A stretch of DNA of 64,000 nucleotides from Myxococcales bacterium (GTDB lineage Bacteria > Myxococcota_A > Polyangia > Haliangiales > Haliangiaceae). The stretch spans positions 1 to 64,000 of the forward strand of contig JAEUJY010000101.1 of NCBI GenBank assembly GCA_016794525.1. The letters run 5' to 3'. Positions 29,741 to 35,365 of the stretch are shown here, piece by piece (positions within the stretch are counted from its first letter, which is position 1; the number at the start of each line of letters is the position of its first letter). Position numbers and translations under genes: made by a program. The notes under the pieces were generated by a model, which had not been told where the DNA came from, did no database searches, and saw nothing but the letters and a program-made list of their open reading frames with translations.

Positions 29741-30667
29741 TCACTCCATCCTCTCCGGGGGCCGCTCGAAGTGCTGCCGCACGCCGGTCGTCGCCGTCTC
29801 GTCGATCGTCTCCGGCTCGATCAACACGTCCTTGGCCTCGAACCGCACCGGGTCGGGGCTGGCGAACACGCCGTGCTTGACCGCGCGCCCCATCGAGCCG
29901 TTCAGGCCCTGGAACGCGCCCTTCTGCGGTGACGACCAGCCGTTGATCGCGCCGCCGCCGCCGAACCCGACCACCGCCGCCGCGACCTTGTCGACGGTGC
30001 CCTGGGGCACCTTGCTGTTGATCTGGACGAAGCCGGGGTTGGGCACGCTGCCGGTGTCGAACAGCTTGGCCAGGCCCTTCTGGGTCCCGATCGGCGCGAA
30101 CACCGCGGCCGCGCCCTTGTACGACGCGACCTCGGCCACCGCCGCGGTGATGTCGGGCTTGCCGACCCGCCCGGCGAAGAACGCCGGGTCGACCTCGGAG
30201 TCGAGCATCGCGTTGTCGATGAAGGCGTTGTCGTCGCAACCGGTCTGGACGTAGGCCAGCTTCTTGCCCTTGAGGCCCTGCATGTCGCTGACGCCGTCGG
30301 CGAACAGCGCCCACTGCCGCGACGTGCCGCCGCCGACCTCGGCGCTGGCCAGGAGCGACCAGCCCAGGTTCTTGGCGTAGCACTGACCGTCGACGATCGC
30401 GAAGTCGACGCCGGCGCTCTTGAGCTGCGAGAACTGCGCGAACGACTTGGCGTCGACCTTGGCCCCGGTCTGGGCCTCGATCGCCTTGGCCAGCGACTGC
30501 GCGTACTGCAGGCGGGCCTGGGCGGTGCCGAACTCGACGGTGGGGGCGTAGATGCCGATCGTCAGCGCGGTCGGCGCGGCCGGCTGGCTCTCGCCGCGGC
30601 GCGCGTAGACCGCGGCGCCGGCGGCGACGATCGCGGCGATGGGGACGAGGGCGAAGAGCTTGTTCAT
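29741..30667 (-). CDS. PhnD-like periplasmic substrate-binding protein
   Basis: A 308-residue protein with an N-terminal hydrophobic segment ([19 protein letters not shown]) that acts as a signal peptide or anchor. A two-lobe binding fold of the phosphonate/phosphite-binding (PhnD) type follows ([52 protein letters not shown]). No ABC permease or ATPase is nearby. The operon instead continues with STAS, histidine kinase and receiver genes. A ligand sensor feeding the kinase pathway is therefore more likely than transport, which is an inference from context. The ligand is unknown. Confidence 0.82.
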
Positions 30668-30698: not shown

Positions 30699-30758
30699 TC
30701 TCGCGTTTCGGGTGGGGGCCCCACGTCTTGTGGGGGAGGGGCTTTGCGAAAGCCCCTC
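30699..30758 (-). repeat. 60-bp intergenic double-hairpin element, copy A
   Basis: Read on the minus strand, this element follows the stop of the TPR gene. It forms a 10-bp stem GAGGGGCTTT-CGC-AAAGCCCCTC, then a second hairpin CCCCAC-AAGAC-GTGGGG. It is identical to copy B (33604-33663) at 58 of 60 positions, and the two differences form one base pair in the first stem (G-C here, T-A there). A terminator or RNA-processing signal is likely. Confidence 0.85.
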
Positions 30759-30771
30759 CTGGATCTCGTAC

Positions 30772-33345
30772 TCAGAAGCCGTAGAACCGCTTCTTGTTGT
30801 CGATCCACTTCTGCAGGTCCTTGGCGTTGACGCCGCGGGCCTTGGCCTTGGTCCAGGCCTCGTACGCGTCCTTGGGCCGGCCCATCTGCTCGTAGAGGAT
30901 GCCCAGGTTGACCAGCGCCTCGGGCGGCGTGCCGTTGAGGTCCTCGAGGGTGCGCAGCTGGTCCTTGCCCAGCGACAGCACCGCGCGGTTCATCGTGACG
31001 CGGCGGCGGATGTCGTCGTCGGCGAACTTGGCGGCCGACTGCAGCGCCTTGTCGGCCTGGCCGCTCTTGCCGCTCTTCCAGCTGTCGTACGCCACGTACT
31101 CCCACGACGACGCGATCAGCGACCGGACCTTGGTGGCGAACGCGCCGCTGGCGCCGCCCTGCAGCGCGGTGAACTCGTCGGCGGCCTTCTGCCGCGCCTG
31201 CGGCGAGTTCGACCGGTAGTTGGCGTAGGCGCCGAAGAACTGCGAGCCGACCTTGTTGTACGGCGGCCGCAGGTACGCGCCCTGGTTGCCCTTGACCGCG
31301 AGGTCCTTGAAGATGTTGGCGGCGGCGCCGTTGTCGCCCTTCTCGAGCAGCGCCAGCGCGTACGAGAACTGGAACGCCGCCGGCTCGGTACCCTTCAGCA
31401 GCGCCGGCTCGCGGGTCGCGCGCTCGAAGTCGGCCACCGCCTCGGCGGCCTTGCCGGCCTTGATCGAGCGCCAGCCGCGCTTGAACAACCCGATCGCCAG
31501 GTTGCGCTTGGCCGCGGTCGCGACCTCCGGCACCTGCGCCGAGAACTGCACCGCGACGTTGAGCTTCTCGACCGCGTCGTCGAGGTCGGTCTCGAACAGG
31601 AGCGGCGCCCACTCGGTGTAGATCTCGGCCACGACCAGGTTGGCCTGGTTCTTCTTGGCTTCGGTCTCGGCCGACGCGTAGTGCTCGGCGGCCTTGGCCT
31701 TGTCGGGCTTCTTGCTGCACAGGAGGCTGCGCGCCAGCAGCCGCTCGTAGCCCATCGCGTAGCCGCGGCGGTTGCCCTCGAGCTTGGCCAGGTGGCGCTG
31801 GGCGCCGTCGCAGTCGCCGCGATCGATCGCCAGCACCGCCATGTTGAGCGAGGTCATCGGCGACTTCGGGTCGACCGCGGCGGCCTCGTCGAGGAAGTTC
31901 TGCGCGGCCTTGTCGTCCTTGGCCAGCGCGCCCCACGCCTGGGCGTTGATGGTCTCGACCAGCGCGCGCTGGATCTGGGCGTCCTTGGGCTGCAGCTGCG
32001 CGGCGGCCTCGAACCGCTGCCGCGCGACCGCGAGCTTGCCGAGGTTGTACTGGGCCTTGGCCGACACCAGCACGACGCCGACCTTGTCCTCGGTCGACGC
32101 GGTGGCGAACTCCTTGCCGCTGATCAGGCGATCGGCGGTGGCCAGCGCCTTGGCGTCCTGGCGCGCCGCGAGGTACGCGCCGCCCAGCTCGGTCGACAGC
32201 TCGTAGCTACCCGGCGACGCCGCGATGCCGGCCTCGAGCTTCTCGATGGCCAGCGTCAGGTTGGGGTTGGCGCCGGTGCCCGAGAACGGCAGGCGGCGGT
32301 AGGTCTTGCCGAGCTGGATCGACAGGTTGACCTGCTCGCGCTGCTGGCCGGCGCGCAGCAGCTTCTCGGCCTTGAGGTAGTTATCGAGCGCCGACGCCCA
32401 GTCCTTCTCCTGGAAGTACGCGTCGCCGGTGAGGATGAACCCGCGGGCCTCGTTCTTCTTCAGGCGGAGGAACTCGGTGGCCGCGCTGCGGGCGCGCACC
32501 GGCTGCTTCTTGGCCAGGTACGCGACGCCGAGGTTGAACCACACCGACCCGTTGGCGTCGACCTTGCGAGGATCGGCGACGACGCGCTCGCACACCGCGA
32601 TCGCGCGGTCGAACTGGCCCTGGCCGGTGTAGCCGGCGCACAGGCCGTTGTCGGCGTTGACCACCGCGTTGGCGCGCTTGCCGAACTTGCGCTGCACCGT
32701 CTCGAGCTGGCTGACCGCCTTGTCGTAGTCGCCGGCCGCGTCCTTGCTCTTGCCGTCGCGCAGCGCCGCGCGGGCGCGGCCGAGGTACGCGAAGCCCAGG
32801 CGGATGCGCGGCAGCGCGTCGTTGCCCTCGAGCTCCGACGGCCGCGCCGCCAGGTACGCCTCGTAGGCGGTGATGGTCCGGACCGGATCGCGGTTCGAGT
32901 AGAACTCGCCGATCAGGTTCTGGTTGAGGAACGACTTCGGCTTGCGCGCGACGACCTTCTCGGCGATCGCCACCGCGTCGGGCTTCTGCCCGAGCTGCCA
33001 CAGGATCAGCGCCTCTTGCTCGAGGATCTCCGGCGCCTCGGGGTGCTGCGCCTTGGCGACCTTGCGGATGAACGCCAGGCCACCGTCGAAGTCCTTGAGG
33101 ATGATGTAGATGGCGGCGCGCTTGCCGTAGGCCTCGGCCGCCACCTGCGCGGGGTACTTGCGGATGGCGTTGTCGTAGGCGTTCGCGGCGCGCTTGAAGT
33201 CGCCTTCCTCGAAGTACTTGTCGCCCTCGCGCAGGTCGTCCTCGGCCTGCGCGTGCGCGGCGGGGATCCACCGCGGGATCGCGGCGGCGCTGCCCAGGGC
33301 AGCGGTGATCAGCACAGCTCGGATGCAGGTTCCGTAGGTACGCAC
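30772..33345 (-). CDS. exported tetratricopeptide-repeat protein
   Basis: An 857-residue protein with a Sec signal peptide (MRTYGTCIRAVLITAALGSA, cleavage near AHAQA). TPR units run over almost the whole length (GDKYFEEGDFKRAANAYDNA; FNLGVAYLAKKQPVRARSAA; ALVNLGILYEQMGRPKDAYE). TPR superhelices scaffold protein complexes; here probably in the periplasm. The partner is unknown. The start at 33345 follows a good sigma-70-type promoter (33407-33436), and the gene ends in the 60-bp double-hairpin element. The neighbours are signalling proteins on both sides. Confidence 0.9.
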   Translation of the reverse strand: MRTYGTCIRAVLITAALGSAAAIPRWIPAAHAQAEDDLREGDKYFEEGDFKRAANAYDNAIRKYPAQVAAEAYGKRAAIYIILKDFDGGLAFIRKVAKAQHPEAPEILEQEALILWQLGQKPDAVAIAEKVVARKPKSFLNQNLIGEFYSNRDPVRTITAYEAYLAARPSELEGNDALPRIRLGFAYLGRARAALRDGKSKDAAGDYDKAVSQLETVQRKFGKRANAVVNADNGLCAGYTGQGQFDRAIAVCERVVADPRKVDANGSVWFNLGVAYLAKKQPVRARSAATEFLRLKKNEARGFILTGDAYFQEKDWASALDNYLKAEKLLRAGQQREQVNLSIQLGKTYRRLPFSGTGANPNLTLAIEKLEAGIAASPGSYELSTELGGAYLAARQDAKALATADRLISGKEFATASTEDKVGVVLVSAKAQYNLGKLAVARQRFEAAAQLQPKDAQIQRALVETINAQAWGALAKDDKAAQNFLDEAAAVDPKSPMTSLNMAVLAIDRGDCDGAQRHLAKLEGNRRGYAMGYERLLARSLLCSKKPDKAKAAEHYASAETEAKKNQANLVVAEIYTEWAPLLFETDLDDAVEKLNVAVQFSAQVPEVATAAKRNLAIGLFKRGWRSIKAGKAAEAVADFERATREPALLKGTEPAAFQFSYALALLEKGDNGAAANIFKDLAVKGNQGAYLRPPYNKVGSQFFGAYANYRSNSPQARQKAADEFTALQGGASGAFATKVRSLIASSWEYVAYDSWKSGKSGQADKALQSAAKFADDDIRRRVTMNRAVLSLGKDQLRTLEDLNGTPPEALVNLGILYEQMGRPKDAYEAWTKAKARGVNAKDLQKWIDNKKRFYGF

Positions 33346-33406
33346 GCGGCCTCCGATGATCGCTAGGTCCGACGCTCCGCACGAGCTCGGGCCCCCACTA
33401 GTAAAA

Positions 33407-33436
33407 ATTGTATCAGCAACCAGGTATCGGCGTCAG
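33407..33436 (-). promoter_or_regulatory. sigma-70-type promoter of the TPR gene
   Basis: On the minus strand CTGACG (33431-33436) is followed after 18 bp by TACAAT (33407-33412, 5 of 6 consensus bases). It lies in a locally AT-rich patch, unusual for this genome. It would give a leader of about 55 bases ahead of the ATG at 33345. Confidence 0.65.
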
Positions 33437-33603
33437 GCGATCACACGCCTGTCGCGTCCCCGTCACGGCGCCGACCTCGTCCCACATCTCCACCCGTCGC
33501 CCTCTCAGCACACCTCGTAGGCCCGCCTCACCCCTCGGTGCCCGGGCCACCTCCCTCCATCAAACTCGCTGGGTCGATCAGAATACCGATCCGCGATGTG
33601 GGC
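33437..33603. other. rest of the 33346-33670 intergenic region, nothing recognised
   Basis: Between the TPR promoter and copy B of the 60-bp element there is no open frame with a plausible start and no clear hairpin or operator. It is C-rich on the plus strand. Confidence 0.5.
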
Positions 33604-33663
33604 TCTCGCGTTTCGGGTGGGGGCCCCACGTCTTGTGGGGGAGGGTCTTTGCGAAAGACCCTC
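33604..33663 (-). repeat. 60-bp intergenic double-hairpin element, copy B
   Basis: Second copy of the element at 30699-30758, in the same orientation and again just downstream of a gene on the minus strand (the SpoIIE phosphatase, stop at 33671). The first hairpin reads GAGGGTCTTT-CGC-AAAGACCCTC, so the single pair that differs from copy A keeps complementarity. Confidence 0.85.
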
Positions 33664-33670
33664 AAAGGTC

Positions 33671-35365
33671 TCAGAAGATCTTGCCGATGACGAGCGTGAT
33701 GTCGTCCTTGCGCATCGTCTCGCCGAAGAAGTTGGCGGCGTCGGTCACCACCGCGTCGCGGATCTCGCCCGGGTCGAGTGCGGCAGCCCGCCGCACCGAG
33801 GCGCGGAACCGCTTCTCGCCGTACTCCTCGCCGGTCGCGCTCTCGCACTCGACGATGCCGTCGGTGTACCAGACCAGGATGTCGCCGGGGAGGAGCTCGG
33901 TGGTCTTGGTCTCGTACTTCGACTCCTTGAGGTCGCCGAGGCGGTTGCCGCGGATCATCAGCGAGCCGAACTCGCCCTGGCCACCCTCGCTGGTCCGGTA
34001 CAGGTACGGGAAGTTGTGGCCGGCGTTGGCGTAGGTGATCGTCCGCTTCTTGATGTCGACCGTCGACGCGAAGCAGGTCATCACGAACTTGCGCTTGGCG
34101 CTCTGGTAGATCGCCGAGTTCATGATCTCGAGCAGGAGCGACGGATCGACGTTGTCGCCGTGCACCGAGCGCGCGACGTCGCACGCGGCCTTGGCGGCGG
34201 CGGTGATCATCGCCGACGGCACGCCGTGGCCGGTGACGTCGCCGATCACGACGAGGATCTTGTCGCCCACCATCTCGTGCCAGGTCCACCAGTCGCCGCC
34301 GCACTGCGACGCCGGCTGGAAGTAGCCGGCGAACCGGAACACGCCCTTGTCGACCGGATCGTGGGTCGGGACCAGCGTCTCCTGGATCGTCTTGGCGACC
34401 TCGAGCTCCTTCTCCATCGTCGCCTTCTCGGCGGTCTGCTGGAGCAAGATCGTCAGCTGGTCGGCCATGAAGTTGAAGTTCTCGCCGAGCATGCCGATCT
34501 CGTCGGTCGAGCGGACCTCGACGCGGGCCGCGAGGTCGCCGCGCGCGATCTGATCGGCCTTCCACGCGAGCAGCTTGATCGGCTTCGAGATCTGCAGCCC
34601 CTGGAAGATCGCGAGCAGCGTCCCGATCAACACGAACAAGAGACCGACCACGCCGGTGCGGACGGCCGCGGTGCGCGACGCCTTCTCCTTCTGGTGCGCG
34701 CTGACCGCGGCGAACTCGTCGATCGGGGTCAGGTCGTAGCCGAACACGAGGTAGCCCTGGCGCGCCTCGCCGGGATCGGTGGCGACCGCGGCGGCCGCGG
34801 TCGGCTCGGCGCCGACGAACACCGGGAAGCCGAACACCTCGAGCTTGCCGTCCTCGCCGGTGAGATCGATCTGCACCAACGGGTCGGCCTGGTTGGCGCT
34901 GGCGCGGGTCTTCCACTCGCCGAGGATCTTCTCCCACGAGCCGTGCTTGACCGGCACGTGCATCGTCGCCGGGTAGCCGCCGGCGTCGCACAGGGTCGCG
35001 TTGCCGCGCGTGACCTTGCAGTACGCGATCAGGTTCTGATCGCGGCCGAGCACGTAGACGATCTTCAGGCCCTCGTCCTGCCGCACGGTCTTCTCGACCA
35101 GCTGCTGGATCTCGGTGTCCTGGTTGTCGATCAGGAACTTCTCGAGCGCCTTCGCGAACACCTGGGTCGTCGTGGCGCCCTTGGTCTTCAGCGACTGCCG
35201 GAAGGTGTCGATCTTCTCCCGCGACGCCTGGTCGTACGCGCTGCGGATGTTGCAGGCGTTCAGCGCACCGAACCCGACCACCGTCAGCAGGATGAGAAAG
35301 GTCGTGGTCAAGATCATCTTGACCGAGATGCTCAGGCCGGCCCGCTTTGCCATTGGTCGTCGCAT
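33671..35365 (-). CDS. membrane SpoIIE/PP2C phosphatase with HAMP domain
   Basis: A 564-residue membrane-bound phosphatase. TM1 lies at about 17-36 (MILTTTFLILLTVVGFGAL). An extracytoplasmic sensor region of ~200 residues with two cysteines, TM2 at about 237-262 and a HAMP linker (ISKPIKLLAWKADQIARGDL) follow. The SpoIIE phosphatase domain (about 345-560) has QCGGDWWTWH, GDVTGHGVPSAM, WYTDGIVE and RKDDITLVIG, whose Asp residues bind metal. It should turn an envelope signal into dephosphorylation of a STAS protein; the STAS gene at 29239-29739 is a candidate substrate. ATG at 35365 or 35353 (MAKRAG) can start it. Copy B of the 60-bp element follows its stop. Confidence 0.93.
   Translation of the reverse strand: MRRPMAKRAGLSISVKMILTTTFLILLTVVGFGALNACNIRSAYDQASREKIDTFRQSLKTKGATTTQVFAKALEKFLIDNQDTEIQQLVEKTVRQDEGLKIVYVLGRDQNLIAYCKVTRGNATLCDAGGYPATMHVPVKHGSWEKILGEWKTRASANQADPLVQIDLTGEDGKLEVFGFPVFVGAEPTAAAAVATDPGEARQGYLVFGYDLTPIDEFAAVSAHQKEKASRTAAVRTGVVGLLFVLIGTLLAIFQGLQISKPIKLLAWKADQIARGDLAARVEVRSTDEIGMLGENFNFMADQLTILLQQTAEKATMEKELEVAKTIQETLVPTHDPVDKGVFRFAGYFQPASQCGGDWWTWHEMVGDKILVVIGDVTGHGVPSAMITAAAKAACDVARSVHGDNVDPSLLLEIMNSAIYQSAKRKFVMTCFASTVDIKKRTITYANAGHNFPYLYRTSEGGQGEFGSLMIRGNRLGDLKESKYETKTTELLPGDILVWYTDGIVECESATGEEYGEKRFRASVRRAAALDPGEIRDAVVTDAANFFGETMRKDDITLVIGKIF

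Follow-up and report, generated by a model that had tools for sequence, protein, structure and literature searches.

The window is the whole stretch of DNA that was analysed, 64,000 nucleotides long, from a genome of 9.8 Mb in 177 contigs (G000). On its minus strand lies the gene for a TPR-repeat protein (positions 30,772 to 33,345, assigned by the Pfam TPR families). The gene next after it (29,741 to 30,667) is its successor in congeners as well, and has no Pfam match at 1e-4. Upstream of the TPR gene ends a HAMP/SpoIIE phosphatase gene. A short repeated element stands behind two of these genes: copy 1 follows the stop codon of the TPR gene, and copy 2 lies upstream of that gene, behind the phosphatase gene.

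The copies, at 30,699 to 30,758 and 33,604 to 33,663, are identical at 58 of 60 positions, and the homology has sharp limits at both ends. The two mismatches are the two partners of a single base pair in hairpin 1, G-C in one copy and T-A in the other when read on the minus strand. The original prediction had described the two copies, the paired differences and the 10-bp stem, and all of it was borne out. It had also placed both copies behind stop codons on the same strand. These are indeed there, both TGA on the minus strand. The stop at 30,772 to 30,774 precedes hairpin 1 of copy 1 by 12-13 nt; it follows from the list of open reading frames, and orthologues in congeners end at the matching residue. 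The stop at 33,671 to 33,673 precedes hairpin 1 of copy 2 by 6-7 nt, and is supported by the reading frames, Pfam and orthologues.

On the minus strand, in 5' to 3' order, a unit consists of the stop codon, a leader of 0-15 nt, hairpin 1, hairpin 2, and the tail CCCCCACCCGAAACGCGAGA. The consensus of hairpin 1 for the two window copies is GAGGG(G/T)CTTT-CGC-AAAG(C/A)CCCTC. In copy 1, hairpin 1 (GAGGGGCTTT-CGC-AAAGCCCCTC, a stem of 10 bp) occupies 30,736 to 30,758, hairpin 2 (CCCCAC-AAGAC-GTGGGG) 30,719 to 30,735, and the conserved tail (CCCCCACCCGAAACGCGAG) 30,700 to 30,718. In copy 2, hairpin 1 (GAGGGTCTTT-CGC-AAAGACCCTC) is at 33,641 to 33,663, the identical hairpin 2 at 33,624 to 33,640, and the tail at 33,605 to 33,623. 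The predicted fold of both copies contains both hairpins (z = -1.6 and -2.3), so the second hairpin, which had been claimed too, is confirmed. Hairpin 1 and the tails are further delimited by the family alignment, and hairpin 2 of copy 1 by comparison of subfamilies. Copy 2 continues into a 3' extension, GAGCCCACATCGCGGATCGGTATTCTGATCGACCC (33,565 to 33,604, minus strand), which upon clustering of downstream flanks is akin to those of about ten other copies.

Family, distribution and stems

The element has many more copies. At least 50 matches to a window copy were found in the genome (40 candidates scored). A 20-base core pattern matches 72 times, against 3 for its reversed control, and the hairpin-1 pattern matches 124 sites, against 0. 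With a covariance model based on 60 copies, at least 137 matches appear in the genome (150 candidates scored) and 88 in the nearest congener, G003. This congener is nearest by identity of the TPR protein, 83% versus 60-65% for the remaining congeners. Given a family of at least 137 copies and the 124 to 0 control result, a chance origin of the likeness between the two window copies is excluded, and the suggestion of a family-wide element holds.

The covariance model has no match in 33 other genomes of the order, these being 5 congeners, 23 further members of the family and 5 more members of the order. A pattern of hairpin 1 plus CCCC, run over 84,980 species genomes, finds only Kofleriaceae bacterium MAG Gw_SlAct_bin_340, taken to be G003, and the host of the window is accordingly placed in the Kofleriaceae (Myxococcota). 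The viral contigs hold no match, so a phage or virus origin is rejected. The Rfam covariance models give nothing at gathering score and only chance hits with E of 5-8, outside the element; a known Rfam RNA family is therefore rejected as well. Similar stop-adjacent repeat families are absent from 400 kb of G006, a congener that does not carry the element.

Within the family the tail is CCCCCACCCGAAACG and variants of it. Additional hairpin-1 copies are optional, and units can form head-to-tail arrays. At five loci (L150, L190, L204, L013 and L082), whole units or tails are repeated head-to-tail behind single genes, with periods of about 53, 72, 79 and 88 bp.

Hairpin 2 comes in several versions. 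Next to the one in the window there are CCCCGGC-ATNC-GCCGGGG, CCCCAGC-ATTC-GCTGGGG (mostly in G003), CCCCGTCGGGG-GCATG-CCCCGACGGGG, and single others. In hairpin 1, counted over 114 copies, pair 5 is T-A in 76, G-C in 35 and C-G in 1, with 2 copies where it is broken; pair 6 is C-G in 89 and T-A in 24, with 1 broken.

An alignment fitted to the covariance model (A3), the pairing figures of which lean towards that model, has 98.0% of stem cells paired across 125 distinct copies, against 87.7% when shuffled, and 193 cells with two-sided changes, against 57. Such changes are present in 11 of the 16 pairs, and the signal is lost when the partner is slid. An alignment made from sequence alone (A2) agrees with this for hairpin 1, where most two-sided changes fall at two or three pairs and may stem from few events. 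The palindromes are kept across the family.

From the two copies it had been concluded that covariation was present, and that selection thus acts on an RNA. The covariation is real and family-wide. The step to RNA was too strong for two copies, since arm-to-arm repair of DNA palindromes would produce the same covariation. Mismatches that could be read as G.U in the sense RNA number 17, versus 9 for A.C (p = 0.17). It had also been proposed that GTGGGG can pair with a downstream CCCCAC. This is possible in the subfamily of the window, with 5 bp and a 3-nt loop. Other subfamilies have lost the pairing, and as a conserved feature the alternate fold is rejected.

The C-runs that flank hairpin 2 co-vary as pairs in all subfamilies: CCC-T-CCCC goes with a tail CCCC-A-CCC, and CCCC-TT-CCCC with CCCC-AA-CCC. 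On the opposite strand these amount to four G-runs, which makes a quadruplex conceivable.

Position and upstream genes

For 119 distinct copies the upstream gene was determined, scored only where codon usage supports the gene. It runs in the sense direction in 115 copies and antisense in none; 4 are unscorable. Hairpin 1 starts at most 15 nt behind the stop codon in 78 of the 115, with a mode of 5-9 nt. Another part of the element intervenes in 29 of the other 37, and in 27 of those 29 that part itself starts no further than 15 nt from the stop. Eight distant copies are left, several of them due to short genes that a simple gene caller misses, such as those for L32 (at L041) and L27 (at L214). 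Counted by array, 105 of 115 (about 91%) start within 15 nt of a stop codon. For comparison, such positions make up 13% of the intergenic bases in the 64-kb window.

The hairpin-1 end always faces the stop codon, also between convergent genes. The downstream neighbour is co-directional for 73 of 112 copies, about two thirds, and convergent for 39. Gene ends in the window, a small sample, split 33 to 18, which is an equal share. The genes that carry the element end in TGA 84 times, in TAG 18 times and in TAA 13 times; in the window these numbers are 36, 13 and 2. This usage is much alike, and TGA as a DNA target is rejected.

The genes upstream of the 76 distinct sites in the window's genome include those for S21, L32, L33, L31, S1, EF-Tu and the omega subunit of RNA polymerase (RpoZ). 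Seven of this class are observed, where about 0.7 would be expected from 72 class members among 7800 genes, both of which are estimates (Poisson p about 1e-5). Also present are GroES, SSB (twice), CTP synthase and cytochrome oxidase subunits. The nearest congener adds L11, L27, IF-2, RpoB, GyrB, a ClpX-like protein and CarD. The names S1, CTP synthase and ClpX are based on domain hits and appearance. This excess at core genes fits insertion favoured by expression, and it equally fits retention for a function.

Insertion into empty sites

All 11 sites that were compared with relatives are empty there, tight operons among them. The TPR gene and its successor are about 13-26 nt apart in the readable congeners, G003 included, and about 100 nt here with the element. 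Five congeners have a short gap without the element at the phosphatase site. Nine further sites, selected for conserved upstream genes, are empty (9 of 9) in the orthologues that were retrieved from G003, G005 and G006, and in most cases the protein C-terminus and stop codon are unchanged. The spacing in the cytochrome oxidase operon is about 120 nt where the element is present; it is 15 nt in G003 and falls well below that in G005 and G006. The copies are therefore insertions, many of them recent, in line with the earlier suggestion that the element is mobile. No target-site duplication is evident by eye in the pairs of filled and empty sites.

The groES-groEL gap measures 29-43 nt in five congeners and over 200 nt in both carriers, where the insert consists of an extra hairpin 1 and whole units in tandem. 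At a second groES-groEL locus in the same two carriers the genes are about 20 nt apart, and the element is missing. This is a natural experiment, with and without the insert, both within one genome and between species.

About seven sites are common to both carriers, several of them with a different subfamily in each. This means that the family was present in the ancestor of the carriers, and has moved further since.

Nature of the element and its possible effects

It has long been asked why REP-like repeats crowd behind stop codons. For the most part REPs are found no more than 20 bp from the 3' ends of open reading frames, and their subfamilies show compensated stems (PMC3733652). REPs at most 15 nt from a stop codon reportedly stall ribosomes (Liang et al. 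2015, cited in PMC12306157), and the E. coli figures for this closeness are 260 of 496 or 446 of 4,072 (PMC12306157).

The reading we favour, as somewhat better than an even bet, is that of a lineage-specific, recently mobile, REP-like palindromic element that lacks the tag and a linked transposase, the hairpin of which may act on termination, translation or decay rather than as a terminator. Like the GTAG- or CGTC-tagged REPs that go with RAYT (TnpA-REP), it is a short dispersed palindrome with more than 100 copies, compensated subfamilies and arrays, largely within 20 bp of the end of a reading frame, between co-directional and convergent genes alike (PMC3733652). Unlike these it has neither tag: the base before GAGGG can be A, G, T or C, and the leader is variable. 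It is also built from two consecutive hairpins and a conserved tail, and it clusters only head-to-tail and in the sense direction, not in alternating fashion as in BIMEs.

A possible further difference concerns the mover. There are 17 Y1 domains in the window's genome and 1 to 10 in five congeners without the element. No Y1 (RAYT-type) transposase was found in the other carrier, G003, which is 99% complete and holds 88 copies, so mobilisation by a RAYT is not supported. A reverse transcriptase as lineage-specific mover is rejected too, because RVT_1 genes are present in all seven congeners and show no correlation with the element. A retron-like reverse transcriptase gene (L353, on G000:C165) occurs in congeners too; in the window's genome it has an element copy about 600 nt upstream, and no link between the two is seen.

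The REPs of E. coli that lie close to stop codons (Liang, Rudd and Deutscher 2015) likewise have a stem directly behind the stop, within operons and at operon ends. Their sequence is unrelated, and the share of arrays within 15 nt of a stop given above sets the present element apart.

BOX in Streptococcus pneumoniae and ERIC are modular intergenic repeats with a variable number of core modules, found in transcribed intergenic regions. The element shares this composite build and setting with them, and differs in its sequence, its strict placement at stop codons and its single orientation.

When a stop codon occupies the A site, the front edge of the ribosome lies about 9-10 nt downstream, which is about where hairpin 1 starts. 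This makes an effect on termination plausible. Copies insert immediately behind stop codons in the sense direction, and thus stand at the beginning of the 3' UTR or of the spacer within an operon. With its base mostly 5-9 nt behind the stop, the hairpin would sit near the front edge of the terminating ribosome. By analogy it would then act as E. coli REPs reportedly do within 15 nt of a stop, through slower termination, altered translation or altered 3'-5' decay. The hairpin may tune translation or mRNA decay in this way, or it may merely be tolerated there.

It is possible, though on the unlikely side, that the element is a purely selfish REP- or MITE-like repeat without effect on host genes, in which case its position would reflect an insertion preference or purging from elsewhere. 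The near-identical recent copies and empty sites in the sister species are what such a repeat would leave, and so is the occupation of gene ends regardless of the downstream neighbour, as well as the second groES-groEL locus that does without. Passive purging leaves unexplained why the hairpin-1 end faces the stop even between convergent genes, and why ribosomal and other core genes are over-represented.

Rather unlikely is a protector or processing site at mRNA 3' ends, with hairpins that resist exonucleases or are cleaved by RNase III, and that are retained at highly expressed genes. Two perfect stems with two-sided changes agree with this, as does the excess at genes for ribosomal proteins, EF-Tu, S1, RpoZ and GroES. 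On its own, however, this reading leaves the tight spacing from the stop codon unaccounted for, and all other relatives manage without the element.

A more speculative reading, which we hold to be improbable, is that insertion itself is steered to the nucleotides behind stop codons, in one orientation and with a preference for abundant mRNAs. What leads the element to its sites would then be translation termination, or mRNA pieces cut back to the terminating ribosome in an RNA-mediated process, and not a DNA target. Since many copies are near-identical and absent from the corresponding sites of the sister species, misplaced copies had little time to be purged. This short time argues for directed insertion; strong selection could have the same outcome. 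The constant contact of the hairpin-1 end with the stop, also between convergent genes, speaks against passive tolerance. With recent copies, known empty sites, no antisense copies among 115 and the core-gene excess, insertion preference and selection could be separated here.

The original prediction had seen a possible terminator, and this part was not supported. No U-run follows the stem, and a terminator scan has no match at either window copy. The element also stands inside operons, between the TPR gene and the next gene, in the cox operon and in groES-groEL. On these grounds a classical terminator as the main function is rejected: Rho-independent terminators share the GC-rich hairpin behind a gene, whereas the element lacks the U-run, sits within operons and is mobile.

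Very doubtful is the variant in which hairpins 1 and 2 stop transcription without a U-run, as a portable terminator that has spread. The location after stop codons, the stable GC-rich stems and the 39 copies between convergent genes would suit it, but co-directional neighbours predominate to the same degree as at gene ends of the window, and tight operons are among the sites. In addition, a terminator-like motif (GTTTTC; G(C/T)GTTTTCGG) follows 8 copies at 36-62 nt on the sense strand, against about 0.6 expected and 0 antisense, and in the cases read a hairpin precedes it, the arrangement of a real terminator. Double hairpins that covary behind stop codons thus need not be terminators, which is a trap for annotation in high-GC genomes.

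Other repeats were seen at gene ends as well. Long hexanucleotide arrays (CTCGGTCTCGGCC and its complement) stand immediately or shortly behind stop codons at L255, L277 and L350 in G003, and at L185 in G000. 13-mers of this type occur at up to 13 of 306 gene ends in G003, and in G006 no 13-mer recurs in 4 or more of 297. At L258 in G003, the last codons and stop of an aspartokinase-like gene (GAGCGCGCCGCGCTGTAA) are repeated about 4 times in tandem behind the gene, as if gene ends duplicate locally.
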